In this document: in pieces, positions 23,642-49,915 of the stretch
Position numbering within the stretch: the first letter of the stretch is position 1
Layout of the letters: every line of letters starts with the position of its first letter
Assembly: GCA_003165595.1 (NCBI GenBank)
Contig: PLWQ01000012.1
Coordinates: 310,015-374,014 of the forward strand
Direction of reading: 5' to 3'
Length of the DNA stretch: 64,000 nucleotides
From: Fibrobacterota bacterium
Lineage (GTDB): Bacteria; Fibrobacterota; Chitinivibrionia; Chitinivibrionales; FEN-1185
Notes under the pieces: generated by a model
Seen by the model: the letters and a program-made list of their open reading frames with translations, nothing else
Database searches by the model: none
Told to the model about the DNA's origin: nothing
Program-made: the position numbers and the translations under genes

Positions 23642-23662
23642 GCTCGGCGGAAAATGGCTCGG

Positions 23663-30682: not shown

Positions 30683-30765
30683 TCCATACGCGTCCTGGTG
30701 ATTCCGTTCGGCATTCTCCATCATTCGTGCGGGTGCCGCTGGAATTTCATTGTCCGATTAATACG
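30683..30765 (-). pseudogene. frameshifted ferritin C-terminal remnant
   Basis: The reverse strand reads INRTMKFQRHPHE, then a stop and frame change, then MENAERNHQDAYG. It aligns base by base with the last 25 codons of the ferritin-like gene at 28836-29327 (INQLMEFQRHPGEW, LENAEWNHREEY). It is the relic of a second copy that has lost everything upstream. Confidence 0.6.
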
Positions 30766-30869
30766 TTGGGTAATGGCGGAACTGCGCCCGTGGGCGCGAC
30801 CCCGCCATCCATACTTTAGCACTCGTAACGCGTGGCAAGACGGAGCGGTTCCGGCGCTCCGCCCAGGAC

Positions 30870-32468: not shown

Positions 32469-32506
32469 GGTTTGATGTCGCTTCACCGGCCTTGTCTGTT
32501 CGTCTG

Positions 32507-32980
32507 CTATGAAAAGAACACGCCCTTTCTCTCCGGCCGGAGCTCTCTGATCACCTGCGCAGGAGACGCGCCGGCCAATCTATTTTCGAGATCCGGATAA
32601 TGAAGAACAAACATCTTTATCTTCTTTGCCTCGTCCGGAGAAAAAGCCGATTTCAATTTGCCTTTGATCTTGTCGACAACCGAAGCACTGTCGCCCTTGC
32701 GCACGTCGGTGCAAAGCACGCCGATCAGCGAATCTTTTCGGTACCATCCCTTTACATCAATGTCGCGCGTTGACGAATTGAGAGCATGGGATAGACTGTC
32801 AAGGAGGATTTCCTGCGGCCTGCCGCTGTCCCGCAGCAGTGGACCGACATCCAGAAATACCAGGAGAAAGGACCTCCCCGATCGCTCGGTTTTTTTTCTT
32901 TCAAGAATAATCATTCGCTGAAAGAACTCTTCGGAGTTCAAAATGTTCGACTCGATTAAGCTGTCTGCGACTGAATTCAT
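32507..32980 (-). CDS. degenerate nucleotide-cyclase-like domain protein (paralogue B)
   Basis: 157 residues, paralogous to 29440-29913 over the full length: ILERKKTERSGRSFLLVFLD, LNSSTRDIDVKGWYRKDSL, IGVLCTD, a helix IKGKLKSAF, then IKMFVLHYPD. No GGDEF, EAL or catalytic signature. The ATG at 32980 follows GGAG by 8 bases. It converges on bfr. Co-location of two copies with oxidative-stress genes hints at a shared regulatory role, but this is inference. Confidence 0.7.
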   Translation of the reverse strand: MNSVADSLIESNILNSEEFFQRMIILERKKTERSGRSFLLVFLDVGPLLRDSGRPQEILLDSLSHALNSSTRDIDVKGWYRKDSLIGVLCTDVRKGDSASVVDKIKGKLKSAFSPDEAKKIKMFVLHYPDLENRLAGASPAQVIRELRPERKGVFFS

Positions 32981-33263
32981 TGGATCCGCTCCTTTCCGGT
33001 AAACCCCTACCTCCGCGTTTCCAAACGATACCGCGGACTCTCCATCATGCCAGAGTGAAAGTGCAAAAAGTGAGCCAACGGCACACAGCCACGGCCACAG
33101 GTCGTGGTCCACGTCGGAAAGGGCAAAAGACATTAAGAAACGCAAGCGCCTTTGCCAACAAGAAAAAAGGTCCCTTGCCGCTTCGGGCAAAAGACCAATC
33201 CTGCATGTCCAGGCAAAAAGACCAAAGTAACTCTCCGGAGTTACACGCGCGCCGCCACGCCCA

Positions 33264-33536
33264 TCACTTCTTCTTGCGTTTGCCTATCAGACGGTAGGTC
33301 TGAGAAAGCGAAAGCCCGAATTTCTTCGCAATCTCGCTCCCCGTCTTCCCGGTCTTGTACAGCGCCGACATCTTCTTGTTCCGGTCCGGATTGAGCTCCC
33401 ATCGAGAGTCTATGCCGTATTTCTTTCTCCATTGATGCACCGCTTGACGGGTGATACCGAGCTTCTTGCCGATTGCCTCGTCGGTTTCAAGCTTCTTCTG
33501 CAACTTGAGCAGCTCGACTTTGGTGATTCTGGCCAT
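33264..33536 (-). CDS. small tandem helix-turn-helix DNA-binding protein
   Basis: A 90-residue basic protein with two helix-turn-helix patterns: IGKKLGITRQAVHQWRKKYG (about 22-41) and IAKKFGLSLSQTYRLIGK (about 68-85). The C-terminus is Lys/Arg-rich. GGAGG lies 9 bases before the ATG. It looks like the DNA-binding part of a transposase or a small regulator; no catalytic domain is attached. It sits 430 bases before the tRNA-Ser that bounds the island, so a link to mobile DNA is possible but unproven. Confidence 0.7.
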   Translation of the reverse strand: MARITKVELLKLQKKLETDEAIGKKLGITRQAVHQWRKKYGIDSRWELNPDRNKKMSALYKTGKTGSEIAKKFGLSLSQTYRLIGKRKKK

Positions 33537-33965
33537 TCAAACACCTCCGTTGATTGTGAAGTTTCACCAGGTGGCATTGAAGGATCTCGCAGCGGACCTT
33601 CGGGAACCGCGATTACAACCGGAGGTACGCCCCGGTGAGCAGCCTGCAATGCGCTCGCTGTGGTATTCAAAATACAAAAAGGAAAGGCTCGTGTCATAAT
33701 TTACACGCAGGCGATAGGACGGCTTCCGCCGCCAATCCGCCACCCGCAGGCAAGGCGGGCTTGGCAGAAATCGGGTAGCGTGACACGGCAGCACGCCCGA
33801 AAAATCTTCACCTTTGTTTACATCAGCGGTGGTACAAGCTATTTTTGTACTCGATCTTTTTGCACGATGCAGCCTATTTCCGGAAAGAAAACGGCGGTGG
33901 CGCGTGTCGGACAATGTCGGCAGCCCCACCCTTGCACGCATGGAATACGAAATGCCGGACTATAT
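33537..33965. other. interval without a supported gene
   Basis: Between the HTH gene and tRNA-Ser no open frame with a start, ribosome binding site or family pattern is seen. No clear promoter for the tRNA could be identified by eye. Confidence 0.4.
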
Positions 33966-34053
33966 GGAGAGGTGACCGAGCGGCCGAAGGTGCACGCCTG
34001 GAAAGCGTGTGTGCAGCAATGCACCCTGGGTTCGAATCCCAGCCTCTCCGCCA
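33966..34053 (+). tRNA. tRNA-Ser (GGA)
   Basis: 88 bases including an encoded CCA. Acceptor GGAGAGG pairs with CCTCTCC, the loop CTGGAAA gives anticodon GGA, a long variable arm typical of class II tRNAs is present (GTGTGCAGCAATGCAC), and the T loop is TTCGAAT. Its last 20 bases plus one are repeated at 49895-49915. Confidence 0.96.
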
Positions 34054-34054
34054 C
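34034..34054 (+). repeat. attachment-site-like repeat, left copy
   Basis: The 21 bases from GAATCCCAGCCTC to CCGCCAC form the 3' end of tRNA-Ser and are identical to 49895-49915 in the same orientation. This is the usual place for tyrosine-recombinase integration. Confidence 0.7.
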
Positions 34055-34061
34055 TGTGCGG

Positions 34062-34099
34062 AAGGGGTTTCTTGCCAAATAGGCAAGGAACCCTTTTTT
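34062..34099 (+). terminator. rho-independent terminator after tRNA-Ser
   Basis: AAGGGGTTTCTTGCC pairs with GGCAAGGAACCCTT around a 5-base loop, followed by six Ts. It starts 8 bases after the CCA. Confidence 0.85.
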
Positions 34100-34361
34100 G
34101 TTTGATGGGGCCTTTCACTCCTCCGGCGGACACGTCTACAAGTCTTCGCCACAGCCCCGTTGATCCGAACAATTTTCCGTGGATCTTCTACCGGGTATCG
34201 GGGCCGATGGGCCGGCATTTTCTGGTAAGCGAGAATGATTTTGTTTCGGCGTGCGATTGTTCTATTTTCTTTGTCCGGTTTTCAAAAGCTTAATGAATTG
34301 AAGATATGCCTCGATTATTGCGAAATCCAGCAGGATAGCGTGTCTTGGACAAGGTAAGCCT

Positions 34362-35399
34362 ATGAACATTTTGTCTCAAATAAACATGACGTTTGTCGAA
34401 ATAGCAAGCATTTGTCTATTCATTTGTTTCCCTGTCTTTTCCTCTAATAAACTCAATCCGGCAGTAAACCACCCTTTTGAACCGAACATCCTTTCATCCA
34501 AAAACTACAGTGAAATCTTTACCTTGACCGCCGTCTATGATGACCAAACGTTCATCCAGACACAGATGATCATTACAAATATCGGGCTCGGCGACAACAA
34601 CGCTGCTTGCGAAATGCTCGTATTGCATCCGGGAACAACATCGTACAGAACAAGCAAGAGATTTCAAAAGCCCTGCTGGAAGTATTCAGAAGTTCCTTTC
34701 CCGACTCTGGCAATCGGCACATGCCTTTTGGCCCAGCAGGGAGAATTAACGAAATGTGTCGTGGCAATCGACAGTTCCATGGAGGAAATTTCCGTTGACC
34801 GGTCACCAAAGACCATAAAACTTCTAGACACAATCTTTGACAGTAGTACTTCGAAGAAATTCTACACCAATGAAGTGCTTATCCCTTGGACAAAACTTCG
34901 AACAACCCTACGGATTCCCGGATGTTCCAAGAAGCAGTTGACGGGATATGGCATGCTGGAACATTCACGAACTACCGGATATCCAAAGGATTTTTCTCAC
35001 AGCTATATTTCGTTCTACGGAAGCCAGGCAGGAAATCAGTTCGTAGCAAATTTGCACTTTCCCAATAACTCTGAATCAGGCGCTGTCGGATGGATCTGGG
35101 ATGGTCGGGATCATTTGCCCACACCTGTTGAGGGTGCACAAATGCTGGAGAATGCGCCTGCTTTCTCTTCAAAGGATCACTGCCTCCCTCATATTTTCAA
35201 ACCGCACTCTTCATTTTCTATTTCTGGAAGACAAGGCCTGTTCCGGCTTACCTTCATGGACGAATTGGGACCTATTCTCGGCAATATCGTCAGAGTTTTC
35301 GCCGGAAACCAGGTAACCTCTTTTTTTACGGCCTTGGCACAGGTTGCCCCCGGCCAGCCACCCATTGAAGGAATTCTGGTAATTACCGATTTCAAGTAG
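34362..35399 (+). CDS. secreted CrtC/AttH-like lipocalin protein (tentative)
   Basis: 345 residues with an N-terminal hydrophobic segment consistent with a signal peptide (TFVEIASICLFICFPVFS). Alternating strand patterns and the block YGMLEHSRTTGYPKDFS, SYISFYGSQAG, LHFPNNSESGAVGWIWDG resemble the double-lipocalin fold of the carotenoid-hydratase/AttH/Svf1 group. Substrate unknown, assignment tentative. No strong ribosome binding site is seen before the ATG at 34362. Base composition looks more AT-rich than the core genes, in keeping with acquired DNA. Confidence 0.65.
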   Translation: MNILSQINMTFVEIASICLFICFPVFSSNKLNPAVNHPFEPNILSSKNYSEIFTLTAVYDDQTFIQTQMIITNIGLGDNNAACEMLVLHPGTTSYRTSKRFQKPCWKYSEVPFPTLAIGTCLLAQQGELTKCVVAIDSSMEEISVDRSPKTIKLLDTIFDSSTSKKFYTNEVLIPWTKLRTTLRIPGCSKKQLTGYGMLEHSRTTGYPKDFSHSYISFYGSQAGNQFVANLHFPNNSESGAVGWIWDGRDHLPTPVEGAQMLENAPAFSSKDHCLPHIFKPHSSFSISGRQGLFRLTFMDELGPILGNIVRVFAGNQVTSFFTALAQVAPGQPPIEGILVITDFK

Positions 35400-35514
35400 A
35401 GATTCATTCTCTTCTTTTTAACTCCTTTGCCAAAGCCATCACTCCGTGACGCCCTGTTGAGTTCTACAATTCCCATGAATATAATTTATTAGGCCTCGTT
35501 TTTCCGGGCTTCTC

Positions 35515-37968
35515 CTACCACATAAGTCCGACTTGAAGATTGATTCTCGTCCAGTCCCAGTCCGATGATGTTCTTGATTCAAAATCGTACAATTTCTGTC
35601 CGCCCCATGAGGTTCGTACATATATCAACTCCAACAAGCTCATTTGAAAAACCACTGGTTCCATGCCGAAGGTCCAGCTTGTAGCCAGATGCGAATCAAC
35701 GCTATTTAGCATCCAATCTTTTCCTCCATTGAGGAAGCCTCCAATGCTTGATTGGAAAACCGCGTTTGCGTAGGTTGTGCACAGGAATCCACAATGTAAC
35801 GAAATTGGAGGGTACCATTGGCCCAAGGCCGCATTTTGTGCACCAATATTGGCCTTCGATCCCTTTCCAACAGAAAGGCATACGTCGCCGACTAATTTTG
35901 GCCAAGCCATGGAGTGACTTGCGCCCAATGTCAACCCATCTGTTCCCGCTCCGAAATGCCAATATGAGGTTCGGGGAACGTAGTAGAAGAAGTTCGATAT
36001 CGGCCTTGCAAGCAATGAATACCGCCTTTCGATCCAGGCATCCTGATGACTCGCAAGGGAATCAATGAGACCAGTAAACTTGTCTGCCATGGAAGACTTA
36101 GAAGCGTCTATGCTTGCTTTTTGCGGGCCACAGGCAAACATGTTCTGGTAGGTGTACCGGTAGCGCCCCAATAAATACAACAATGCGTCCAATTCTCCGG
36201 AGCCCCCACTTTTCAAGGTCGGCGCAATAACGTTTTTACGAAACTCTTTGGGATTGATTGACGCGAGTTTGAAAAAAACCGGGCGGAAATTGGTCATTCT
36301 GCGCCATCCGTCTTCTTGTGATTTGTCCACGTCCCAATGAATTGGATCAATCCGCCTGCACGCCCACCTTGACCATAATCGATCAATGCTGGTTTGCAGC
36401 ATGATCGCCTCCTGGCTGAGGTCAAAGGAGTCGGCTGGGTGGTTCTTCTTCATCAGCCGATACATTGTATCGACGGTTCTAGTTATAGGGTTCCATGTTC
36501 CTGAATCTGGAACAAACGTGCGGTATTTTACACAAGAGTCCGCAATCGAAAGAACCGTATCGTAAACCATTTTGATAAGTTTGTAGCGGACGTTCGCCCG
36601 TTCTGGTCTCGTTGCCTCCAGATCTGACGAAAATTGATAGGATGGCCTGGTACTTTTCAGGCTAGGAACGGCAATATTGGCTAAATACCTTTGAGAATCA
36701 TACATTCCAAGATAGAAGTCGAATACTCTGAAAGGCCGTTCGAAAAAACCCAGAAAATTCATCAGGTAGGCGCTCATTGTCGGAGTGTATGAATTTGTCA
36801 ATTTCAACTTTTGGTCAAATTCGGGGAATTTGTCGGATATGATTCGAATTTCCTTCGCTTGCGCCGAACTGGCCAGGTTGCCTAGCACCTTCATGAATGT
36901 CGAGGTGATACTGCCATTGTTCTCTGACTGAATGGATTTATATTGGGGAAAAGTAACGTTATCTTGACTCAAGTACACGAATAACGTTTTGTTGACAGTG
37001 AACGTATCGGTTCTTGATGAAAGGCACGGATTCCACCGAATTTCCGAGCTATCAATTGTAAGCCCGTTGCAAATCACGTTCGAAGCTAACCGAAGCGGTG
37101 CGTTGTCAAACACCCCACCATCCATATATGTCGGTTTGGAATCATTTCCCGGGACATGATTCTTGCGAAGTGAGATCTGGTCCCACAATGAATTCTGCGT
37201 AGTATCCCAATCTAGATTCTTTGTTTCTCCTGGAACCAATCTCCATTGCCATATCGCTTTGGGCGGGAAGGCACCAGGGAATCCAGAGGAGGCATAGGCA
37301 AGATCGCAAACAGCCTTCAAATCATTCTTGTGCATCTCAGACGAGGAATTGCCGGTGTGGAGCGGGAGTATTGGAACAGGGTAGCCAGCCTTCGGGTCAA
37401 GATAATTCCGCAGTTCCCATGCCCCATTTCCGATGCGTCTCATCCTAACAAGAAATTTGTCCTCGACATTCGGAATGGTGAACCTGCCACTCACCTTGAT
37501 CTCTTCGGGCTCCATCCTGGTGGCGGTTATTCCAAGCACCACATCAACATCTTCACCGGACGGAGGATTCGTTATCTGCGGCAGGAGAACCTTGTCTCTA
37601 AGTACGTCGAAGAAGTCTCTCTTGAATGCGCCAATTGCGCTACCTCCACCGAGGAGTGTGTCGTACCCAACTGGCACCCATGTTCTATAAAACAGGCTGT
37701 TAGTATCAACGCAAAAACTGGTATCAGCAAGAGAAAGCACCATAACCAGCGCATTAATTGCTCCGGCGGACGCCCCCGTGATAGTGCACACCTTTAAATA
37801 ATCCCTGTTCTTTCTTATCCAATCATTGGCAACATATTGGTAGCCTGCCTGATAAGCTCCCAAAGAAACTGCTCCGCTGACGGTCAACGACATTGGGATT
37901 CTTTCCAAACCGCAAACATTCAGGAACAAAGACAAAATCGCCAGCTTGAAAAAAGGACATCTTCCCAT
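35515..37968 (-). CDS. patatin-like phospholipase with putative C-terminal beta-barrel
   Basis: 817 residues. A signal sequence (1-20) precedes a patatin domain with the oxyanion motif SGAVSLGAYQAG, nucleophile GASAG (Ser67) and the Asp of the dyad in YMDGGVFDNAP (about residue 285). The C-terminal 150 residues are rich in alternating aromatic strands and end in NLQVGLMW. A terminal aromatic residue is typical of outer-membrane proteins, so the lipase may be surface-anchored, broadly like PlpD-type patatins. A long helical insert of unknown role lies between. GGAGAAG precedes the ATG. Likely acts on phospholipids or other acyl esters. Confidence 0.85.
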   Translation of the reverse strand: MGRCPFFKLAILSLFLNVCGLERIPMSLTVSGAVSLGAYQAGYQYVANDWIRKNRDYLKVCTITGASAGAINALVMVLSLADTSFCVDTNSLFYRTWVPVGYDTLLGGGSAIGAFKRDFFDVLRDKVLLPQITNPPSGEDVDVVLGITATRMEPEEIKVSGRFTIPNVEDKFLVRMRRIGNGAWELRNYLDPKAGYPVPILPLHTGNSSSEMHKNDLKAVCDLAYASSGFPGAFPPKAIWQWRLVPGETKNLDWDTTQNSLWDQISLRKNHVPGNDSKPTYMDGGVFDNAPLRLASNVICNGLTIDSSEIRWNPCLSSRTDTFTVNKTLFVYLSQDNVTFPQYKSIQSENNGSITSTFMKVLGNLASSAQAKEIRIISDKFPEFDQKLKLTNSYTPTMSAYLMNFLGFFERPFRVFDFYLGMYDSQRYLANIAVPSLKSTRPSYQFSSDLEATRPERANVRYKLIKMVYDTVLSIADSCVKYRTFVPDSGTWNPITRTVDTMYRLMKKNHPADSFDLSQEAIMLQTSIDRLWSRWACRRIDPIHWDVDKSQEDGWRRMTNFRPVFFKLASINPKEFRKNVIAPTLKSGGSGELDALLYLLGRYRYTYQNMFACGPQKASIDASKSSMADKFTGLIDSLASHQDAWIERRYSLLARPISNFFYYVPRTSYWHFGAGTDGLTLGASHSMAWPKLVGDVCLSVGKGSKANIGAQNAALGQWYPPISLHCGFLCTTYANAVFQSSIGGFLNGGKDWMLNSVDSHLATSWTFGMEPVVFQMSLLELIYVRTSWGGQKLYDFESRTSSDWDWTRINLQVGLMW

Positions 37969-38069
37969 CGTCTTCTCCTTTTCTGATTGTTCACATTTGG
38001 TTAGCCTAGAACACTCGAATCGCTACCCGTGCTCTGTTTGCTGCGGCACCACTTCCGCGCCAATTATCA

Positions 38070-38888
38070 TTATTTTGTTCTCAAAAGCGCCTTGCGGTCC
38101 CAAGCCAGATTGGAGGTGATTGCCCATGATGCGAAACGAAGTCGGAGCCGCTCCAGCAAGAGTTTGCCCGCATAGCGGTACACATTTCCACGCCACGAAA
38201 TCGCAGCAACCGGAGTTCTTCCCAATTTGCGCAAACCCGCATCGACAACTTTTTCTGGCGTCCATGCCCATTGCGCAACGCGCGTTCTGGCTCTAGCTTG
38301 GAAATTAGTCTTTGTGGCGCTGGCACACATTACGAGGAGGTCTACCTTGCTATCAGCGTACTGCAGCTCCTGCCATATGGCTTCGCCGAGAAACAGCTCA
38401 AAGGCCTTTTCGGCCGTGTAGACCGCAGAAAAGGCAACTGGCGCGAACGCATTGACGGAACACACAAAGATCACCGCTCCCCGATCACGCTCGACCATTC
38501 CCTGGAGAAAGTGATGGGTGAGTGTGAGATACGAGTGCACGGACACTCCCACTCCCTCCCGATACACGGAAAGCGGCGTGTCGAGGAAGCGCCCAAGCGT
38601 TCCGAAAGACGCACAGTTTACAAGAATGTCAATCTCCCGGGTGCCGACGCACCGCCGAATTTCCTCGAGGTGATTCAGGCTGGATAAATCGCAGGTACAA
38701 GGAATAACTTCCGTGGCGTACCTGCGGGAGAATTCCTCCGCCGTCGCAGTCAATGCCTCCTTTTCATTAGAGACTATGATGCAATTGAGACCGTCCGCGC
38801 AGAGGCGTTGCGCCATTGCGCGGCCGATGCCGGAGGAGGCGCCGGTCACTAAAGCCCAGGCACCATATCGTTTAAGCGACTGCGACAT
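38070..38888 (-). CDS. short-chain dehydrogenase/reductase
   Basis: 272 residues of the classical SDR fold. NAD(P) motif TGASSGIG, CDLSS after strand 4, NCASFG in place of NNAG, catalytic Ser in VCSVNAF, and YTAEK as the Tyr-xxx-Lys pair. The C-terminal lobe resembles 3-ketoacyl or lipid reductases of the DltE/YqjQ kind. The ATG at 38888 has AGGAAG 4 bases upstream. It lies inside the 3' end of the preceding acyltransferase gene (17-base overlap), so the two are translationally coupled. Probably reduces a product or precursor of that acyltransferase. Confidence 0.88.
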   Translation of the reverse strand: MSQSLKRYGAWALVTGASSGIGRAMAQRLCADGLNCIIVSNEKEALTATAEEFSRRYATEVIPCTCDLSSLNHLEEIRRCVGTREIDILVNCASFGTLGRFLDTPLSVYREGVGVSVHSYLTLTHHFLQGMVERDRGAVIFVCSVNAFAPVAFSAVYTAEKAFELFLGEAIWQELQYADSKVDLLVMCASATKTNFQARARTRVAQWAWTPEKVVDAGLRKLGRTPVAAISWRGNVYRYAGKLLLERLRLRFASWAITSNLAWDRKALLRTK

Positions 38889-39618
38889 ATTCTTCCTGAG
38901 AAACAGCACGGCGATCTTCGGTTTCCAGGTTTCTTTCCATCATCTCCTGAACGCACCGACGAAGATCGTTTGGAACCGCCTCGCTGCAGCAAATGGAATC
39001 GAGCGAACAGTATCCGGCGCACGATTTCGTGTTGTTGAGCCCGGCATCGACGAAGGCGTGGGAATCCGAATAGGTAAATCCGAATTTCCGCATAAAGGCC
39101 ATTGCCGGCCCCACGGTCCTTGAGACATGCCAAAAGTGCGGCTTTGAAAACATGATTCCAAGCAGGCACCCGAGCAAAAAAAGGTTGACCCCGTATCGAA
39201 ACGGGCGCACGTGCGGCACCGCAACCAGCTTCACAAACTCTATCACGTTGGGGTCGCGAAACCGGGAATGGTCCAGGACAATTCCTTTTTCCAGCTCCAT
39301 GGCCAGCCGGGGGAACCGCTGGGTCGGCGTGTTGAAGGTGAGCGAAACCGCCACCTCGTCGTTGACAAGCAATGCTGCGATTATCGAATCCGTGTCGCGC
39401 GCCAGCCGCATGCACGAGGGATCGTGGCGCGCCGGGTCAAGGTATCCGGAGCGGACCAGCCCCGCATAACGTAATGCCACCACGCTTGAATACAAGGGCG
39501 AATCCGGGAAGACGCGGACGATTCGGGAACCGGCACAACTGAAACGTTCGGGAAGGTATTCGTTCCAATCCTGCTCGGTAATTGTGTTCCAGTAAAAAGT
39601 CTTGTTTGAAAAGTTCAT
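38872..39618 (-). CDS. FeeM-like N-acyl amino acid synthase / GNAT-fold acyltransferase
   Basis: 248 residues. The pattern resembles the N-acyl amino acid synthase (FeeM) branch of the GNAT/autoinducer-synthase fold: LRYAGLVRSGYLDPARHDPS, a strand with LVNDEVAVSLTF, PRLAMELEKGIVLD, a helix VIEFVKLVAV, then MAFMRKFGFT. A Cys cluster near the C-terminus (CAGYCSLDSICC) is unusual. FeeM joins acyl-ACP to amino acids such as tyrosine. The start MNFSNK at 39618 has AGGG at better spacing than 39624. The assignment rests on pattern recall and could be a related acyltransferase. Confidence 0.6.
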   Translation of the reverse strand: MNFSNKTFYWNTITEQDWNEYLPERFSCAGSRIVRVFPDSPLYSSVVALRYAGLVRSGYLDPARHDPSCMRLARDTDSIIAALLVNDEVAVSLTFNTPTQRFPRLAMELEKGIVLDHSRFRDPNVIEFVKLVAVPHVRPFRYGVNLFLLGCLLGIMFSKPHFWHVSRTVGPAMAFMRKFGFTYSDSHAFVDAGLNNTKSCAGYCSLDSICCSEAVPNDLRRCVQEMMERNLETEDRRAVSQEEYVAVA

Positions 39619-40153
39619 AGGCATGTACCCTGTTTGGTGATTGATGTATAGGATTCCATTGAATTCCTCTTAGAATCTTATTTCCTGGCATGGTAGTTTG
39701 CAAAGCCCATGCCGGAAATCAGAAATTGTCGTAACTTGTTTTGAATCAGGGGGAATTGCAGAAGATCAGGGGTTTTCACCGTCAGCCGAGTTCATGCAGA
39801 TTGCATGATATTTGTCTTGACGGAGAGTAGTAGCTATGGGCAAAATGAGCGCTATGCAAATTTCATTCAGAATGCATTATAGATCATCGACCTTGGCTCA
39901 TTTGGTGTCATGTGTCCGTTAGGGCCTAATGCCGGCATCACTAAAACCGGTCCAAGTCAACATGTTCGCGAAGTTGCATTTTATTGCAGTTTGTCCGGAA
40001 TGCTTTGTATATTTTCTTTTCGGCGCCCGAAGCTTGCGAAGCAGTGGATTTACCTTCCGAATACTGTCAAGAAAGTCAAGACACAATCCTTGACGCATCC
40101 GCTCCATTCGAAGAATCAAGATACTACCCTTTGTTCGTTGGTCGGAGGAATCT
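39619..40153. other. divergent intergenic region
   Basis: 535 bases between the divergent acyltransferase and hydrolase genes, visibly AT-rich. No supported open frame or RNA. It should contain both promoters; none can be named with confidence. Confidence 0.4.
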
Positions 40154-41212
40154 ATGAAATGGAAAGCCTGTTTTCTGGTTTCCTTGCTCTTAAGCGCAGT
40201 CGCGCCCATGGCTAATGCCAATAGTGTGCCAATTACCTTTTCGCCGGAGTCTGTTCGCGCCGCGATGAGACCACTGGACCTGGATTCTGAGACGGACTAC
40301 CCCCGCCCAATACAGGACTACTTCAGCTATTATGGATTGGACACTCCAAGCGTAGTTCACTGGTTCGGAACATATCGTTCCGAATCTTGCACCTTGGGCA
40401 CCCATAAATTCAGAGCTGATAACCTGGCGGCGCACGTGTTTAGACCCGCTAACCCGAGAGGCACACTGCTGGTTATTCATGGTTATTTGGACCATGCGGG
40501 CATCATGAAGAACGTCATACATCTTGGTTTGGATTCCGGGTTCACGGTCGCGGCCATTGATCTTCCAGGTCACGGCCTATCCTCCGGACCGCGCTCATCA
40601 ATCCAGGACTTTTCGCAGTACGGCTACGCCATCGGACACTTCCTTGACCAATACGGCAAGTCGCTACCCCGCCCGCTTATTTTGGTCGGCCACAGTACTG
40701 GCTGTTCCGCGATCATCGAATATCTCAACATTTACAAGAAGGATCTGAACGTAGACAGAGTTATCCTCTGCGCGCCGTTGGTTCACCCCATAAGCTGGGC
40801 CGGACTCCGTATACTCGGAATATTGTTGGGATGGTCTCCGTGCGCCTGGCCTCGCTGCCATGCAATACTATCCTCGGATACTGCATGGCAGCGGAAGTAT
40901 TACCAGGATCCACTGGAGGGCAAAACTGCCCCAGTCCGCTGGTTATCGGCAATGGTCACCTGGAACAAACGGCTGGAGCACTATCCGCTGTTTCACACGC
41001 CGGTATGTGTGATTCAAGGGAAAAAGGACAGCGCGGTTGACTGGCGATACAACCTCCCGGCGCTCAAGCGACGGTTCAATTCAGTCACGATTCACCTCAT
41101 TGACAACGGCGGCCATCAGCTCATGAATGAAAGCGAACCGGTCAAGAGCCTGGTTCTTGGCTATATCGGCGCCGAATTGTCCGCGGGTGCAAAGGCCGGG
41201 ACTGGCAAGTAG
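40154..41212 (+). CDS. secreted alpha/beta hydrolase (monoglyceride-lipase-like)
   Basis: 352 residues with a signal peptide (MKWKACFLVSLLLSAVAPMANA). An alpha/beta-hydrolase core follows: oxyanion strand TLLVIHGYLDHAG, DLPGHGLSSG, nucleophile elbow VGHSTGCSA, acid Asp in GKKDSAVDW, and His in NGGHQLMNE. The layout is that of Hydrolase_4 / monoacylglycerol lipases. GGAGG lies 7 bases before the ATG. It probably cleaves acyl esters in the periplasm or outside; the substrate is unproven. Confidence 0.9.
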   Translation: MKWKACFLVSLLLSAVAPMANANSVPITFSPESVRAAMRPLDLDSETDYPRPIQDYFSYYGLDTPSVVHWFGTYRSESCTLGTHKFRADNLAAHVFRPANPRGTLLVIHGYLDHAGIMKNVIHLGLDSGFTVAAIDLPGHGLSSGPRSSIQDFSQYGYAIGHFLDQYGKSLPRPLILVGHSTGCSAIIEYLNIYKKDLNVDRVILCAPLVHPISWAGLRILGILLGWSPCAWPRCHAILSSDTAWQRKYYQDPLEGKTAPVRWLSAMVTWNKRLEHYPLFHTPVCVIQGKKDSAVDWRYNLPALKRRFNSVTIHLIDNGGHQLMNESEPVKSLVLGYIGAELSAGAKAGTGK

Positions 41213-41569
41213 TAACCTCGCGTTACCCGGCCTTTACCCGCCACGCAGAACATGTTTTGCAAAAGAATTCATGTCAGCATAAAATAATGGCGGTAAGGAC
41301 GAGGATATATTATTATTTATTACCCCCTAGTGTCGTGTCCCACAAATATGCTTAGCAAGTCAATGCCTTTCTTCTGGACCGAAGCAAAAGGGAAAACGGC
41401 ATTTTGTCCTATTTTTGCATAGCGGATCATTCTTCAATGATCGCAGCACGATTGTCTTTTCTTTAGCGTATTTACGGGACGGCACACCAGTTCCTGTTGC
41501 GGTTAGGGAAATATTTTTGACGGGCACGCGGTTCCAATCACTCACTTACGACGTTCGCCTGGAGGATTC
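41213..41569. other. intergenic region before the NtrC-type gene
   Basis: 357 bases. An open frame at 41415-41669 runs into the next gene in another frame and lacks support. No -24/-12 sigma-54 promoter was found by eye. Confidence 0.4.
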
Positions 41570-42991
41570 ATGGAATTCCAGAAATATCCGGAAAAACCGG
41601 TGTTGCTCATCGATGATGAGGTTGATGTACTGCAATCTTATCGTGCGACCCTCCAATTCAACAAAGTAAACAATGTCGTATTATGCTCCGAAAGCCACAA
41701 GGCGATGGACCTGCTTTCCACATCGGAATTTTCTGCCGTTGTGCTTGACCTGACCATGCCTCAGGTCACCGGACAGGAGATTCTCGGGAAAGTGCATCAG
41801 ATGAACCCCGGTCTCCCGGTCATCGTCGCAACGGGATCGAGCCGGATTGAGGTGGCTGTCGAATGTATGAGGGCAGGGGCCTTCGATTACATCACCAAGC
41901 CGATAGAAGAGGCCCGGTTGATCGCCAGTATTCACCACGCATTGGACATTGGCGAGCTTCACAATGAAAACATCGTGCTTACAAAAGGGGTAATGAAAAG
42001 GACGCTGGACCATCCCGAAGCGTTTGCGCCGATCTTAACGACCAATGCGGTCATGAAGGCCATTTTCGTTTATGTCGAGGCTATTGCCGCAAGCCCGCGA
42101 CCGGTCCTGATCACCGGCGAAAGCGGTACGGGAAAGGAGGGCTTCGCCCGGGCAGTCCATGCATTGAGCGGACGAAAGGGGAAATTCGTTTCTGTCAATG
42201 TGGCCGGGCTGGACGACACAATGTTTTCGGACACTCTTTTTGGACATCGCAAAGGTGCATTCACGGGTGCCGATCTGGATCGTCCGGGCTTGGTGGAGCA
42301 GGCGTCATCGGGCACATTGTTTCTGGACGAAATCGGCAGCCTTGAAATGCATTCCCAGGTCAAACTGCTCCGCCTGCTCCAGGAGAAAGAATATTATCAG
42401 CTCGGCTCAGATGTCCTGAAATATGCAAACGTGGCGGTTGTCGCCGCCACCAATGAAGATCTCCGCGCGCGGATGGACCAGGGAAAATTCCGCAATGACC
42501 TCTATTTCAGGCTTAAAACGCATCACATCCGTATTCCGCCGCTGCGGGAGCGGCTAGACGATCTCCAAATGCTCATCGCGCATTTCGCGGAAGAGGCCTC
42601 AAGAACCCTTGGTAAGCCGCTTCCGGAGACGCCTCCTTCGCTGGCCCGGAACCTGTACGGATATTCCTTTCCCGGAAACATCCGGGAATTGCAGTCCATG
42701 ATTTTTGACGCGGTTGGAATGGGCAGTCTGGATCATCTTGGCGACGGGCTTCAGGCCGAGCATGTGAGCGCGCCGGTCCGCGAAGCGGAACGAGGTAGTG
42801 AGGCTTGCACCCCTCTTGACAGGCCTTTTTGGTATACCGGTACGATCCCGAAACTGTGCGATGTCGAGGATTTTCTTATACGAGAAGCTATCGAAAAATC
42901 CGGCGGCAATCAATCACTTGCTGCTAATATGTTGGGTGTATCCCAATCGACGCTCAGCAGAAGGTTACGCAAAGAGGTACTGGATTCATGA
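41570..42991 (+). CDS. NtrC-family sigma-54-dependent response regulator
   Basis: 473 residues. Receiver with phospho-Asp60 in AVVLDLTMPQV, Walker A GESGTGKE (183-190), canonical GAFTGA loop (229-234), Walker B GTLFLDEIGS, and a Fis-type helix-turn-helix at the end (LAANMLGVSQSTLSRRLRK). All activator features are intact. GGAGG lies 5 bases before the ATG. The sensor kinase begins 78 bases downstream, forming an NtrC/NtrB-type pair carried inside the island. Its targets are likely sigma-54 promoters of island genes, though none is visible. Confidence 0.95.
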   Translation: MEFQKYPEKPVLLIDDEVDVLQSYRATLQFNKVNNVVLCSESHKAMDLLSTSEFSAVVLDLTMPQVTGQEILGKVHQMNPGLPVIVATGSSRIEVAVECMRAGAFDYITKPIEEARLIASIHHALDIGELHNENIVLTKGVMKRTLDHPEAFAPILTTNAVMKAIFVYVEAIAASPRPVLITGESGTGKEGFARAVHALSGRKGKFVSVNVAGLDDTMFSDTLFGHRKGAFTGADLDRPGLVEQASSGTLFLDEIGSLEMHSQVKLLRLLQEKEYYQLGSDVLKYANVAVVAATNEDLRARMDQGKFRNDLYFRLKTHHIRIPPLRERLDDLQMLIAHFAEEASRTLGKPLPETPPSLARNLYGYSFPGNIRELQSMIFDAVGMGSLDHLGDGLQAEHVSAPVREAERGSEACTPLDRPFWYTGTIPKLCDVEDFLIREAIEKSGGNQSLAANMLGVSQSTLSRRLRKEVLDS

Positions 42992-43069
42992 TGCCAAATG
43001 GGAATCAAGAACGACGTCCTCAAACCTCTGTGCTTCTATTTCCTTTCTCTATGTGAAGGTCGCTATTCC

Positions 43070-44539
43070 ATGAATGATGATTCGAATTCCTATAAGTTCA
43101 ACAAGATTACCCTGCGATACGCCGACAAGGCTTTGGAGAAGTCCTTTGCCAGCCATTATGACGAAGAAAATAGGTTTACAAACAGGATCACTACCATCGA
43201 GGCGGCATTTGCGTGGTTCATAATAATGGTATATGTATTCCTATTTCAAAAAGATCTGATTTTCAAAATCTCGCTCCCCATAATCATGGTTGTTTTCCCC
43301 TATTTTTGTCTAGTTATCGCTGTAACCTTTATAAAAAGACTAACGTTTATTTGCCAAGGCATCTGTGGCCTGGGAAACCTTTTGGGAGGTCTGACCGCCG
43401 TGCACTTGGCAAAATTCTTCATAAGTGGTCCTCACATGATGACGTATTACATCCTTGCATTTATTATGGGAGCCTTTTTCGCTCTCGGGCTCAGGTTCTC
43501 GTATGCCGTACCGATTTCTCTGTCTTACGTAATACTTTACCAAATAAATCTCTGCTGGCCCCACCGCTACCTTCCTGAGGTAGTATATCAAGATACTGCG
43601 GTGATCTGGGCTTTTGAATTGACTTCGTTTGTTGGCGGCTATTTTTTTGAGAAGAACGTCAGAAAGGTCTTTGTGCAAAACCTGATTATCAAGGAGCAGC
43701 GCGAAACTATTGAAACTGAAAAGGAAAAATCAGAAAGCTTGCTTCGCAAACAATTGTCGCATGCGGAAAAGCTCGCGACCCTGGGTACCGTCGTCGCCAG
43801 CGTCGCGCATGAGATCAATAATCCCAACAATTCCCTGATGCTGGACGCCCAATTCAACCAAAACGCGTGGAGAAGCGCATCCGCGGTTCTTGACGAACAC
43901 GCCGCCGAAACCGTCGGCCTGTCGATCGGCGGATTCGGCTACGCCGAATTCAAGACCTCCATCGTAGAGGCGTCGAACCGGATGAAACGCAACACCGACC
44001 GCATTAAACATATTGTCGAGAATTTGCGGGCCATTGCCAAGAAGGACTCGGATTTCGACGAGGACGTCGATCTCAACGAAACCGTTCGATCCGCCTTGTC
44101 CGTGATCGAGCACGTTACAGGGAGGTATACCCAAAACCTTCGCGTCGAGTTTGGCGACTCCATTCCCCGCGTCAGGGGCAACCCCCAGAGTCTTGAACAG
44201 GTAGTTATTAACCTGGTGAAGAATGCCTGCCAGGCCCTGCCGGACAGGGACAAAGGCGTTTTCATCGCCACGGCGTTTGCACCGGACAAGCAAGCGGTTT
44301 CATTTACAATCCGCGACCAAGGCAAAGGCATGGATGAAAATACGCTCAAAGAAGTATTCACCCCGTTCTTTACCACCAAAGGGAAAGAGGGAACGGGTTT
44401 GGGCCTTTCCATCTGCAACAATATCATAAAAAATCACGGCGGGTCCACCGCAATAGAGTCGAAGCCCGGGCAAGGAACCACTGTGAGTTTCCTGCTTCCT
44501 GTTACGCCTGTCCCCGTTCAGGTTGCCCCCAAACAATGA
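43070..44539 (+). CDS. six-TM NtrB-type sensor histidine kinase
   Basis: 489 residues from ATG 43070 (the frame is open to 42998). An N-terminal motif ITLRYADKALEKSFASHYDE precedes about six transmembrane helices (45-205), a layout also seen in membrane adenylate cyclases and kinases. A short coiled coil leads to HisKA (His in VASVAHEINNPNNSL) and HATPase_c (LVKNACQAL, RDQGKGM, FTPFFTT, GTGLGLSICNNI). The HEINNP type belongs to the NtrB/AtoS class, matching the adjacent sigma-54 activator. No periplasmic sensor domain, so the signal is probably within the membrane. Confidence 0.93.
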   Translation: MNDDSNSYKFNKITLRYADKALEKSFASHYDEENRFTNRITTIEAAFAWFIIMVYVFLFQKDLIFKISLPIIMVVFPYFCLVIAVTFIKRLTFICQGICGLGNLLGGLTAVHLAKFFISGPHMMTYYILAFIMGAFFALGLRFSYAVPISLSYVILYQINLCWPHRYLPEVVYQDTAVIWAFELTSFVGGYFFEKNVRKVFVQNLIIKEQRETIETEKEKSESLLRKQLSHAEKLATLGTVVASVAHEINNPNNSLMLDAQFNQNAWRSASAVLDEHAAETVGLSIGGFGYAEFKTSIVEASNRMKRNTDRIKHIVENLRAIAKKDSDFDEDVDLNETVRSALSVIEHVTGRYTQNLRVEFGDSIPRVRGNPQSLEQVVINLVKNACQALPDRDKGVFIATAFAPDKQAVSFTIRDQGKGMDENTLKEVFTPFFTTKGKEGTGLGLSICNNIIKNHGGSTAIESKPGQGTTVSFLLPVTPVPVQVAPKQ

Positions 44540-44667
44540 CTCCGGTGCCGGCCGATTCGGAGTAAGATGACTCATGACCGGGCCCCTCCTTGGCTTGCGT
44601 ACGCCGATTCTCTATATTACTGACTGACCTTGTCGAAGAAACGGATGAGACAAACGGGAGGTTGAAA

Positions 44668-45810
44668 ATGCTGTCAACTTTTACGATCCGATCAATTCCG
44701 CATTTTATAGCTTCGGAATTTCACAGCTGGCGCAGGGGCGGCCATAGGGCGGCTGCCGTTTATCCCCCTGCACAGGTACGATTCAGCTCGCTTACCAAAG
44801 AGCAGCAAGGCACCTTCGCCTTGAAATCCGCTGTTGAACCGGGCAGGGGAGTATATGTCACTTTTTTTGGGGCCAACTCATTCCATTTAACGGACGGCAT
44901 AACAAACATTCTTATCGACCCCTATTTTTCTCGGGACCATTACTACTTTGAAGTCCCGTTTTGGCCGGTAAAGCTCCCATTGAGCCCGGATAGGATCTCG
45001 GGTTGCCTGAATCGAATGAACATTCCCAAGCTCGACGCGATTCTCACGACGCACGCCCATTTCGACCATTCAATCGACGTGGGTTACGTTTCGAGCTATT
45101 TCGCAAGGGCCAGGGCCGCGACACATTTTGATGGAAATCCTTATCCTCCACTCTATGGATGCAGGTCGGTCGCCAACGTTGCCTTGGGCAGCTTGGCGCC
45201 GGAGGAATCGTCCACATTTCCAAAATACAATGTTTACGAAAGGGAGGCAGCCTTTGCCGCCCTCTGCAAGAAGTACAACATCACTGTGGTTGGTTCTTCG
45301 TACGATGCGTCGTTTCAATGTGCTGATTTCTCCGTAAAATTCATCGAAGCAAGACATATCAAATTACCAATTGAGGTGCGGAAAGAACTGTGCGGCACCG
45401 TTGACGATCCTCTGGTTCCCGAAAGAGATTATTACGCGTACAAGGAAGGCGAAATTCATTCACTCGTAATAAAGCATAAGCGCTGGGGGAATATCCTTGT
45501 CATGGGAAGCGCCAATTATGTGCCCGGTCAATATGATCGCCTGAGCGTCGGGGACAGACCCGATGCCATGATTCTTGGCATCGGCTTCTTGCACAAAAAG
45601 GATGGGATTGCGCAATACAGGGACAACGCGATCAAGCCGTTCAATCCGGGAAAAGTCTTTCTTTCCCATTGGGATGATCTCAAAACCCTGCTTGACGAGG
45701 ACATGAAATGGATGGCACACACGAGCCACGACGACATTTACAAAGCGGTTTCCGCGGTATGCAAGGATACGGCGTTTCTGCCGCTGCTTGAATGGGTGAA
45801 AGTGCTGTGA
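44668..45810 (+). CDS. metallo-beta-lactamase-fold hydrolase
   Basis: 380 residues. Metal site THAHFDHSIDV (HxHxDH), a preceding strand YVTFFGANSFHLTDGITNIL with ILIDPYFSR, a later His in FIEARHIKLP, and a C-terminal LSHWDD. The 'N(I/V)LIDPYFS' and HxHxDH arrangement recalls the UlaG/NAPE-PLD-like branch. It probably hydrolyses an ester or phosphodiester. GGGAGG lies 6 bases before ATG 44668, preferred over upstream starts. It is 129 bases after the kinase gene; co-transcription is possible. Confidence 0.85.
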   Translation: MLSTFTIRSIPHFIASEFHSWRRGGHRAAAVYPPAQVRFSSLTKEQQGTFALKSAVEPGRGVYVTFFGANSFHLTDGITNILIDPYFSRDHYYFEVPFWPVKLPLSPDRISGCLNRMNIPKLDAILTTHAHFDHSIDVGYVSSYFARARAATHFDGNPYPPLYGCRSVANVALGSLAPEESSTFPKYNVYEREAAFAALCKKYNITVVGSSYDASFQCADFSVKFIEARHIKLPIEVRKELCGTVDDPLVPERDYYAYKEGEIHSLVIKHKRWGNILVMGSANYVPGQYDRLSVGDRPDAMILGIGFLHKKDGIAQYRDNAIKPFNPGKVFLSHWDDLKTLLDEDMKWMAHTSHDDIYKAVSAVCKDTAFLPLLEWVKVL

Positions 45811-46061
45811 GTGCACAAATCTCGGTTCTTCTTGGTGGATAGTGCGACAGGAAATTGTGCGTTACCCTTGCTACGTTCGGGCCGTTCTTCCTATTACGTC
45901 CCGTCTTGCGGCACATCTTGACGGGCCAGAATAGAAATCCAGGAGTTACGGCGGGAAGCGGGGCATGCACTTTCCGCCGGAAACAGCACATGGCGTTCAG
46001 CCACTCCTTCACAAGCGCTTATCCTGCCGGCAGTATGGCGGGGAGTGCGGACAGGCATAGT

Positions 46062-47555
46062 TCAGAAATGGAGTGTTCCTGAAAAGGTAATCTGAAGCCC
46101 GCCGTACCCCGTGTGCGTCGAGGGCTGCGAGGGCGGAAGTTGCGCGACAGTTTCCTGACGCGAGCGCAACTCCCATGGGACAAGCTGGAGCGCATTAATC
46201 AGGAAAGAATACCTTCCAAAGTTCAGCCCGTATCCCAGGCGAAGCTTGACCATGACGAGCTTCTCTTCGCTTGAAATGACGGATTCGTCCGTATAGTAAG
46301 GAATCAGGATCGCAACCTGTCTTTCCCGCGTTCCGAGGAGGAACTTACCATATAAGAATGAGCAGTCTATGCCAGGGTCGATTTCGAAGTGGTGTAGAAA
46401 TGGGAAATTGCCCTGTGTGAACAATCCCGCTTCATGGAATACTCCGGAGAGTCTCGTGATCTTGTAATGAACAGGGTCGAAGATTGTCCATGAGGTAAAG
46501 GGGAACGCCTCAAAATATCCTTGTGGCACGTTTCCATCGCTCAGCTCTCCAAAAGCCCCGGCGCGAATACGGTGCGGAAATTCCACGGAAGCCTCGGCCC
46601 ATCCGTCAAGGATTTCACCATTATCAGCGATTGCATACATCGTTGTGCCGTCGTATCCCTTTGCGCCGAGGCTCCAATCCCGGAGAAGACAATCGAAGGA
46701 CACGGGAAGTGGATGGCTCGACGTTTTTGCCCAGAGCATCATTGTGCCGCCGCTCGCATTAAGGAGCGTGTTCAGTTTTTCGGGTGATTGCGCAGTAGTG
46801 TCGGAGGCAACGCAGGCGACTTCCGGTGTTATTCCAGCATCGACCGGACCAAAATGAAAGGAGAACGGAAGGCTTGCCCGGGTCCGAACGCAATACAGCG
46901 GGAATTCTCTTCCTGCCCCGTTTGACTGCGTCTCGATATTCGAAAGCGAAGCGAGGGCCGGTGAGCGGTCTGCGAAAAGGCCTACGGAAAATGAATGGGC
47001 TTTCCACGTAAGTGAATAGCTCCCGCCGAGTGCGCGTGTCGGAGCGTCTCCGTCTTCGGTACACGGTGCGACCCAAAGAGCCCCTTCGGTTTCAACATGC
47101 CCTTTCTTGAAGCCGATGCCCGCGCCGCCTGCAACAAGGGAGCTATGTGCATGTGCGAGCAGATCGCTTGCCCTATTTGACCAATCAAAGTCCATGCTGG
47201 ACCAGTTCCACCAAGCACGAAGAATCCACGGAGTCCTTTGCATGGTCGCATACGCGTAGGCCGACGCCGCATCACTATTTACAGATGATATTGTTCCGGC
47301 ATTGTCTGACGTTCTATCCTGCACCACGTCGAAATACGATCCTCCGTAGGAGATACGGTCGCCTGAAGCGGTGTCGGGAACCGGGGTGGACCGACCGGCA
47401 AACAGCCCCGGCTGCAGGTCGGATAAAAGCAGGGACGAGCAATGCCGCGGCTGTTGAGCCGAAGCACCGCACACGAACAGGAAAAGAAGAAGCGCACCGG
47501 AAACGCAATGCCTGTTTTCGAGCGGTGCGCCTGCGTGGAGGGCGAACGCTGTCAT
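46062..47555 (-). CDS. putative outer-membrane beta-barrel protein
   Basis: 497 residues with an N-terminal signal peptide (SGALLLFLFVCGASAQ). The remainder is a series of short alternating strands rich in aromatic and glycine residues, ending in LQITFSGTLHF with a terminal Phe, which is typical of outer-membrane barrels. No family is recognised. It begins 9 bases after the stop of the lipoprotein gene upstream, so both are one operon and may form one envelope complex. Confidence 0.65.
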   Translation of the reverse strand: MTAFALHAGAPLENRHCVSGALLLFLFVCGASAQQPRHCSSLLLSDLQPGLFAGRSTPVPDTASGDRISYGGSYFDVVQDRTSDNAGTISSVNSDAASAYAYATMQRTPWILRAWWNWSSMDFDWSNRASDLLAHAHSSLVAGGAGIGFKKGHVETEGALWVAPCTEDGDAPTRALGGSYSLTWKAHSFSVGLFADRSPALASLSNIETQSNGAGREFPLYCVRTRASLPFSFHFGPVDAGITPEVACVASDTTAQSPEKLNTLLNASGGTMMLWAKTSSHPLPVSFDCLLRDWSLGAKGYDGTTMYAIADNGEILDGWAEASVEFPHRIRAGAFGELSDGNVPQGYFEAFPFTSWTIFDPVHYKITRLSGVFHEAGLFTQGNFPFLHHFEIDPGIDCSFLYGKFLLGTRERQVAILIPYYTDESVISSEEKLVMVKLRLGYGLNFGRYSFLINALQLVPWELRSRQETVAQLPPSQPSTHTGYGGLQITFSGTLHF

Positions 47556-47564
47556 GTGGTACTG

Positions 47565-49226
47565 TTACTGATAGATCAAATCAAGCCATTTCTGGCGGGT
47601 CATGTCCGGAAAAATGCCGTCGAATGTGTAATCGGTGAAATACGGAAAAAAGGATTTTGCCTTCGTGAGACTGTCAACGTTCATATCCGCGTTGTTTCCA
47701 TCCATGAGCCTGAGCGGATTATTAAGCGACCATGTTGAGTCTATTGTGACGGCTGCTTTGTAAGGCTGCTTGAGATAATACACGATATTGCCAAACGCGT
47801 TCGGCACGATCGAGTCGATCTGGGAACTGGGTATAACTACCGTGTCATTACCCTGGTAGGTAACAACGGTATTTGACGGCATAGTGCTCACATACCGGAA
47901 GTCCTCTTCGCCCGAGACCCATTGCGATTCGTCGAGCCACCGGTACTTCGGCAAAAGAGACCTGAGGTCGCTCACAGGATGGTCAAAAAATGCGCTGATG
48001 TTAACCGTCAAAGCAATGTGGGCGCTGTCGATGGTTTCGTCAAAAGAGTAGGGCCCGCTTAACAGCTGCGTGATGAAATCCATAAGGGATTCGGGGCTGC
48101 TGAACTTGGCTGCCAGGGCGGGTGACACCCCCTCGTTAATAAGGTTCTGTGCGTTGTTGACCATGTCTTTGTCCATATCGAGGATGTTGCTTATCTTGAC
48201 AATATCATACTGCTGCGATCCGGTTTCGTTTCTTATGCTTGTAATCCCCGTCTTGATCAATGCGGGCGCCGCGAGCAGGTCCGCCTTGATCTTCCCCTGG
48301 TTTGCCGAGCGGATCGTGAGAAATCCCTGGCGCTGGAGGTTGTATTGCATCATGCGTACCATGTAGAGATCAGAACTGCTGACGTAGTCTTTGGAACACT
48401 GAATGAGCGTATCGTTCGAAAGGGAATAGACCGTGGGATTTGTGTAGCCATTCGAATTCGCGAGCGAATCGATCCAACTGTTGTTCGTCGTGCCGGGAGC
48501 ATACAAGTCGTAGTTATAGGCGCATAACCAATTGCCGAACGCGCTAAGCAAGTGCATATAGGCGTCCACCAGATAAATCTCGCCTTTGTTTATTATCGCA
48601 GAATCGGTGGACCCGTTGTCTGTGACGACGACCAGTACCGATGTTTCACTCCGGTTCTCGAGTCTGACAGCGGCGGCTATCACGTTGTCCAGCACAGGAA
48701 GCAGCTCGGATTCAATAGCGCTCTGGATATAGCTCATGGTGACAAACGCGGGGAACGACGGTTTCTTCGTCTGTGCCAGGACGATGTCCTTAGTCCGGAC
48801 GCCGATCACCTTGCCAAGTCCAAGGACTCCTTCTTTGTTAAGTGTGGGCCCCATGACGGAAACCGAATTGCTGCTGTCCAGCGCGCGGAAATATGCGTCC
48901 AGGGAATCCGCCATTCTTCTGATGACGGGATCGGTGTTCAGGGAGAGGATGGCGCTCACGATGTAGCCCACGTTTGCTTTCTGGTTCGTGTCGTCTTGCG
49001 AGATGATATCGTTGAAGCCGTCGCGCAGATCGTTGAAAGTGACGCCGACCACTTGATCGTAACTGCTCGCCTTGGACAGGGTCTGGACACGGGCGACCAG
49101 CACCGTAAAAAGCGAATCGGCGGAGCTGACCTGTGTCGTGTGAGGTGGAACGGTGGAAGCAGGATTCTTGGTACATCCAAGAAAGACCAAAATTGCGAAC
49201 AGCGAAGCCGAGATCATTCTGTTCAT
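47565..49226 (-). CDS. hypothetical lipoprotein
   Basis: 553 residues. Lipoprotein signal with lipobox FLGC near residue 18 (MNRMISASLFAILVFLGC). The mature part is rich in Asn, Ser and Asp with many short hydrophobic helices; the end reads FDGIFPDMTRQKW. I do not recognise a domain. The start at 49226 follows AAAGGTGG. It is first of a two-gene operon with the putative barrel protein. Anchored to a membrane by its lipid; role unknown. Confidence 0.7.
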   Translation of the reverse strand: MNRMISASLFAILVFLGCTKNPASTVPPHTTQVSSADSLFTVLVARVQTLSKASSYDQVVGVTFNDLRDGFNDIISQDDTNQKANVGYIVSAILSLNTDPVIRRMADSLDAYFRALDSSNSVSVMGPTLNKEGVLGLGKVIGVRTKDIVLAQTKKPSFPAFVTMSYIQSAIESELLPVLDNVIAAAVRLENRSETSVLVVVTDNGSTDSAIINKGEIYLVDAYMHLLSAFGNWLCAYNYDLYAPGTTNNSWIDSLANSNGYTNPTVYSLSNDTLIQCSKDYVSSSDLYMVRMMQYNLQRQGFLTIRSANQGKIKADLLAAPALIKTGITSIRNETGSQQYDIVKISNILDMDKDMVNNAQNLINEGVSPALAAKFSSPESLMDFITQLLSGPYSFDETIDSAHIALTVNISAFFDHPVSDLRSLLPKYRWLDESQWVSGEEDFRYVSTMPSNTVVTYQGNDTVVIPSSQIDSIVPNAFGNIVYYLKQPYKAAVTIDSTWSLNNPLRLMDGNNADMNVDSLTKAKSFFPYFTDYTFDGIFPDMTRQKWLDLIYQ

Positions 49227-49894
49227 ACTGCCACCTTTCTTTTGTGCGACGCCTATCAGGAAATCAACTTGAGGAGTAACAAGCATCTGTTTGACTGAAA
49301 CAAAGTAATTATATAGTGTAGGGCGGGGCTTGACAATCCCTAATTGAAAATTCTGGATTAGGGCTGGGCTAACAGGGACGAAGACGAATCTTTTCCTGAG
49401 CTTTTTTCTTTTGTTGTTATCATGACCGTCTCGCCAATCCTGACCATCCTGATTCTGCATTTTCCCCATCCTCCCCTAAATACCATTTGTGAAGGATTCC
49501 GGGATTGTGCTTGAGTTGTGGTGACCGTTGGAGTCGGGGCGGTGATCGTACCGAGAGAGTCAGTATATGAGGCTTACTTGCCGTGCAGCAATACGATCCC
49601 GGGACAAGCCCGTCTTTGTTGGAGATGGTTATGACCGCCAGAACCGTGTCGCCTGCAATCCGGGCGCCCGCAGGAGTAAGCAAAGTGAATGTCGATGACG
49701 ATGGCGGCGCTATTGTATCGGCTGAAACGAGCATGAGTTTCTTCTTTCGGATGTTTACATCTCAAGCGCGAAAATCTATTTTTCTACTCGTTCTTTCTCA
49801 ACATTCGTTATATTTTCTGGCTGTGGTTAGCGCAGTTTTGAAGCAGCCGGATTGTGACCAATAGCAGATTCAATGTGTTACGAGGTGCGGCAGG
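49227..49894. other. right end of the island, no supported gene
   Basis: 668 bases. On the - strand, 49580-49734 reads STFTLLTPAGARIAGDTVLA, then SNKDGLVPGSY. This resembles the start of an Ig-like repeat, but it is short and unsupported. The lipoprotein promoter should lie here. Confidence 0.35.
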
Positions 49895-49915
49895 GAATCC
49901 CAGCCTCTCCGCCAC
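49895..49915 (+). repeat. attachment-site-like repeat, right copy (tRNA-Ser 3' fragment)
   Basis: Exact copy of 34034-34054. The bases before it (GTGCGGCAGG) do not continue the tRNA, so only the 3' end from the T arm onward is present. The SRP RNA starts 8 bases later. Confidence 0.7.

Follow-up and report, generated by a model that had tools for sequence, protein, structure and literature searches.

A probable tRNA-Ser-targeted genomic island without an integrase, with a candidate substitute promoter for the SRP RNA gene at its right end

The window analysed here is a 64,000-nucleotide stretch of a Fibrobacterota genome in which a 15.9-kb interval, holding ten main genes, lies between tRNA-Ser(GGA) and the SRP RNA gene. 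We consider it likely that this interval (34055–49915) is a tRNA-targeted genomic island that has lost its integrase and whose right end supplies a substitute promoter for the SRP RNA gene. Its status as an insertion is well supported by comparative sequence evidence, chiefly because removal of the interval gives back the compact tRNA-Ser–SRP–dnaX order that is common in the taxonomic order. The features discussed below are collected in Table 1.

Table 1. Coordinates of the island, its ends and its cargo in the window
Feature	Position	Strand	Basis or remark
tRNA-Ser promoter block, TTTACA-N17-TATTTT then TACTCGATCTTT	33817..33859	+	Pattern and consensus scans
tRNA-Ser(GGA), intact, CCA included	33966..34053	+	ARAGORN, Rfam; 3' end is the proposed left attachment site
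Proposed attL core, 21 bp	34034..34054	+	Exact repeat
Intrinsic terminator, left end of island	34060..34098	+	Near-identical terminator after tRNA-Ser in G001
345-aa protein, no family assigned, hydrophobic N-terminus	34362..35399	+	No Pfam, NCBIfam, PHROG or PADLOC match
817-aa patatin-like phospholipase	35515..37968	-	PF01734
Short-chain dehydrogenase (SDR)	38070..38909	-	PF00106
250-aa protein, no family assigned	38872..39624	-	No family match
Alpha/beta hydrolase, BipL-like (phospholipase BipL)	40154..41212	+	PF12146; NF052543 at 218 bits, below the cut-off of 450
NtrC-family response regulator	41570..42991	+	Response_reg, Sigma54_activat, HTH_8
Membrane histidine kinase, paired with the NtrC-family regulator	42998..44539	+	HATPase_c
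Metallo-beta-lactamase-fold hydrolase	44590..45810	+	PF12706
497-aa protein, probably outer-membrane (from its sequence)	46062..47555	-	No family match
634-aa putative lipoprotein, order-restricted family	47565..49469	-	Homologues in 15 of 40 relatives
Right-end outward promoter block, tRNA-Ser-like, TTTACA-N17-TATTTT then TACTCGTTCTTT	49754..49796	+	Pattern and consensus scans
Right-end segment conserved with G001, putative arm site GCAGTTTTGAAGC at 49832	49797..49894	+	74% identical across ~150 bp, flanks counted
Proposed attR core, 21-bp 3'-terminal tRNA-Ser fragment	49895..49915	+	Exact repeat
SRP RNA gene, sole copy found in the genome	49925..50023	+	Rfam RF00169, 63 bits
dnaX, nearest core protein-coding gene past the right end	50041..51765	+	Pfam; adjacency to SRP conserved in relatives

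The interval has the two boundaries expected of a tRNA-targeted island: an intact tRNA gene on the left and, on the right, an exact 3' fragment of the same tRNA in the same orientation. The original prediction had described a same-orientation recurrence of the last 21 bases of tRNA-Ser just before the SRP RNA gene. The exact 21-bp repeat is indeed present, but the core string, GAATCCCAGCCTCTCCGCCAC, comprises the 3'-terminal 20 nt of tRNA-Ser(GGA) and one further base, and the promoter block of the tRNA gene recurs as well. Both copies of the core lie on the same strand, and they are its only exact occurrences in the whole 5.39-Mb genome (42 contigs). No further match is found in the window even at 3 mismatches, with 0 expected in shuffles. 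The CCA of the displaced fragment ends 10 bp before the SRP RNA, and the expected empty-site join reads tRNA-Ser-CCAC-GACAATCA-SRP. A strong terminator follows the intact tRNA gene and is missing from the compact loci of relatives. Just 5' of tRNA-Ser, at 33606–33675, lies a repeat of ~70 bp with ~40 more copies in the genome (82–96% identical); it folds no better than shuffled sequence.

A repeat of 21 bp is within short k-mer reach and the genome is in 42 contigs, so an assembly artefact was considered, in which a crossover at the repeat inserted a circular or unrelated contig. Against this, the tRNA-Ser gene and terminator are 93% identical to those of an independently assembled genome of the same genus (G001), whose two copies of the core share a shorter string, and the window sits in a 673-kb contig. 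An artefact of this kind is very improbable.

The ancestral state of the locus is indicated by 40 relatives in which it was located through dnaX. At least 20 genomes, from five other families of the same order, have tRNA-Ser(GGA) ahead of the SRP RNA at a distance of no more than about 0.6 kb, and tRNA-Ser(CGA) often precedes tRNA-Ser(GGA) in these loci. The distance from CCA to SRP is 7 bp in G031, G004 and G008, 8 bp in G013, 10 bp in G039 and G016, and 23 bp in G003. The 10 bp of the window falls within the 7–10 bp of most of these, in agreement with the proposal that excision would place tRNA-Ser directly before SRP RNA and dnaX. The search for empty sites that had been suggested as a check thus returned compact tRNA-Ser(GGA)–SRP–dnaX loci without the 15.9-kb block in relatives from the order, and none within the genus, where both close relatives are rearranged or fragmentary around the locus. 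G001 was rejected as a same-genus empty site because its tRNA-Ser and SRP genes lie apart. The two genes are separated in other ways in a few relatives (G019, G026, G030, G037), and several genomes of the order have no tRNA–SRP linkage and no integrase of the G001 family in the stretches fetched. In three loci (L010, L011, L017) the spacer between tRNA-Ser(GGA) and SRP contains short, degenerate repeats of the 3' end of tRNA-Ser, such as GCCTCTCCGCCA in L010, which are perhaps scars of earlier insertions.

The right end of the island contains more than the core. A promoter block common to both ends, TTTACA-N17-TATTTT followed by TACTCGNTCTTT, precedes the tRNA-Ser gene on the left and is directed towards the SRP RNA gene on the right, where the nearest upstream gene lies on the opposite strand. 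The similarity of the two blocks scores z = 10 against shuffles. With up to 2 mismatches allowed, part of the block, TATTTTTNTACTCGNTCTTT, has two sites in the window's genome and a single one in G001, where it precedes the 21-bp copy; 38 matches to the block in public genomes were scattered across unrelated taxa and were taken for chance. Beyond the promoter block the left and right leaders do not align (score 14, shuffle mean 15), and on this ground we rejected an origin in a duplicate that had simply lost its tRNA body.

The right leader does have a counterpart in G001. On another contig, that genome has the 21-bp core in exact form, with ~100–130 bp on its 5' side that match 49768–49895 at 74% identity (z = 13.5 against shuffles for the two right leaders), and in both genomes the similarity ends within a few bases past the core. 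The segment GCAGTTTTGAAGC is present at the right end in both, and a close variant, GCAGTTTTGTAGC, is found in G001 between its tRNA-Ser and integrase genes, suggesting that GCAGTTTTGAAGC may be an integrase arm site. At the level of sequence, the right end consists of a promoter of the tRNA-Ser type, an element-specific segment and the core, rather than a duplicated tRNA gene with a simple deletion. The G001 copy does not adjoin SRP; the genes ~1.2 kb away from it have syntenic counterparts on a different contig of the window's genome. We read this copy as the product of a subsequent rearrangement at the core or of an independent insertion. A HU/IHF-like gene, recognised by eye, adjoins the promoter–core unit in G001 (L069, about 10680–11020).

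That the right-hand copy and its promoter might form an independent gene for a small RNA whose 3' end resembles that of tRNA-Ser, involving no attachment site and with the cargo placed by chance, is suggested by the G001 unit, in which a promoter block of its own is present and a perfect terminator comes immediately behind the core. Both sequences nevertheless fold no better than shuffles (z of -0.2 and +1.5), the window's copy has no Rfam match, and an RNA gene would leave the ancestral spacing to SRP unexplained; we regard this alternative as very improbable. The right end was likewise rejected as a tRNA-like gene, with null results from ARAGORN, Rfam (E up to 10) and folding.

The same tRNA gene is occupied by an integrase in G001. 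A Phage_integrase gene encoding a 391-aa tyrosine integrase lies 215 bp after its tRNA-Ser(GGA). A second member of the family, 38% identical, is found downstream of tRNA-Ser in the tRNA–SRP locus of G020, which belongs to another family. In that genome similarity extends through tRNA-Ser and some 30 nt of SRP RNA and then breaks off, and a complete SRP gene was not found (the genome is 69% complete). The G020 integrase itself (L105, 1377–2689) comes after tRNA-Ser and the truncated 5' end of SRP RNA, with radical SAM and type I restriction-type genes downstream. G024 has a decayed member of this integrase family immediately 3' of a tmRNA-like gene that was read by eye (L106, 6700–7716). Searches for the G001-type integrase in viral contigs and phages gave distant matches only.

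In the window's genome, integrase matches are distant and Xer-like, apart from a relic of a G001-type integrase beside tRNA-Ser(CGA). This relic consists of 24 codons at 79% identity and 55 bp at 84%, and includes the ETEIYAHL motif. It is positioned ~230 bp downstream of tRNA-Ser(CGA) (L117, 8202–8273 and 8502–8593), and a degenerate tRNA-like sequence lies upstream of the same tRNA gene. The relic implies that an integrase lineage of the G001 type was once present and has since decayed, in agreement with an island that lacks the enzyme. The proposal that the island is decayed or was moved by an integrase in trans fits the relic.

These comparisons also bear on whether an integrase is needed at all. 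The tRNA-Ser transcription unit could have been duplicated and its SRP-side copy have decayed, with the promoter and the last 21 nt kept for SRP, while ordinary rearrangement brought in the cargo. Such a history would account for a promoter block at both ends, for the genomes of the order in which tRNA-Ser and SRP are split with no G001-family integrase seen in the stretches fetched, and for the degenerate tRNA-Ser-like sequence in some spacers. It does not predict leaders that cannot be aligned past the promoter block, or the conservation of the right leader in G001, away from SRP. Similarity that stops just past the core in both genomes is what site-specific recombination predicts, and integrases are found at tRNA-Ser(GGA) in G001 and at the tRNA–SRP locus in G020. 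On this evidence we consider duplication without an integrase unlikely.

The preferred reading, a tRNA-targeted island, suggests the following course of events. In the ancestor, tRNA-Ser and SRP RNA were probably 7–10 bp apart and would have been co-transcribed from one promoter. A tyrosine integrase of the G001 kind would have recombined attP with attB across the 21-bp core, so that the left end kept an intact tRNA gene and the right end a 3' fragment of tRNA-Ser. The insertion, with its added terminator after the tRNA, would have severed the single SRP RNA gene from the tRNA promoter. The tRNA-Ser-type promoter at the right end, aimed at SRP RNA, most likely substitutes for the one lost, and we infer from its sequence and position that this block probably drives the SRP RNA gene. 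The integrase gene would since have been lost, and the island would now be either fixed or dependent for movement on an integrase acting in trans.

The cargo is accessory and comprises lipid-acting enzymes, envelope proteins and one two-component system. It had been described from the sequence as mostly envelope, lipid-acting and regulatory genes without an integrase, and the family assignments bear this out: they include a patatin, an SDR, a BipL-like lipase, an NtrC-type regulator with its kinase and a metallo-beta-lactamase fold. No integrase is found inside the island by PHROG, by Pfam or by tblastn with the integrases of relatives, and family scans of the cargo revealed no excisionase or transfer gene. 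Judging from this gene content, the island is no longer self-mobile. The ten main proteins include no relaxase or type IV secretion component, as an integrative conjugative element would carry. Among the island proteins scanned, PHROGs gave esterase matches only, with none of the structural, packaging or replication genes of a prophage or satellite. Defence models had no match in the cargo, a search for the patatin on plasmids found none, and no solved structures were found for two of the cargo proteins. Weak homologues of the 497-aa protein adjoin homologues of the 634-aa gene in two relatives.

The distribution of two cargo genes was followed among the 40 relatives. The patatin gene is present in two and absent from the same-genus and same-family genomes (G001, G002), and the 634-aa gene is present in 15, none of them of the same genus or family (G001, G002). 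The cargo, as represented by these two genes, is patchily distributed, which is not proof of a recent origin. GC content is 50.5% in the island and 55.8% in a 400-kb background, and the tetranucleotide distance of the island exceeds that of every one of 20 background stretches of equal length. The composition check suggested earlier is therefore borne out in part: the island departs from the background and composition shifts sharply at its right edge, but there is no shift at the left edge, where the 22–34 kb region left of tRNA-Ser is equally atypical. As a boundary test, composition is sharp on the right and uninformative on the left. The region 22000–34000, in which GC is as low as in the island, may be a second variable region. 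It contains two paralogous proteins of 235 and 227 aa without a Pfam match, encoded close together on the minus strand (29440–30147 and 32507–33190).

Islands of this kind are already known from the Islander collection (PMC4383910), and the unusual part here is the outward tRNA-type promoter before the only SRP RNA gene. The Islander definition of tRNA- and tmRNA-targeted islands applies an integrase filter (PMC4383910). The interval resembles Islander islands in its intact tRNA at one end, same-orientation 3' fragment at the other, accessory cargo and length of 15.9 kb; unlike them, it has no internal integrase and would be removed by that filter. SXT/R391 ICEs integrate in the 5' end of prfC (PMC2791158). 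They share with the island the integration by a tyrosine recombinase beside a housekeeping gene, whereas here the target is the 3' end of a tRNA, conjugation genes are absent and it is the SRP RNA gene further along that is endangered. SXT also gives prfC a new 5' end and promoter. The G020 insertion occupies the same tRNA-Ser–SRP locus, and differs in that its junction seemingly lies inside the SRP RNA, it carries restriction-type genes and its right end is not assembled. A literature search on islands in Fibrobacterota returned nothing relevant.

Islands in tRNA genes are common and are usually described as repairing the tRNA alone. At this locus tRNA-Ser is the first gene of an apparent operon and the single SRP RNA gene is next, so that the element faced a second problem. 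We tentatively suggest, as somewhat less than an even prospect, that the order harbours a family of elements aimed at the tRNA-Ser–SRP RNA operon, in which an outward host tRNA promoter beside an att arm keeps the sole SRP RNA gene from being silenced. In practical terms, deletion of the wrong segment could silence SRP. If the end promoter works in this way, it shows how elements enter operons of indispensable RNAs, and such sites could be found through a copy of a host promoter beside a displaced tRNA fragment. Integrative islands would then repair the operon behind the tRNA as well as the tRNA that they entered.
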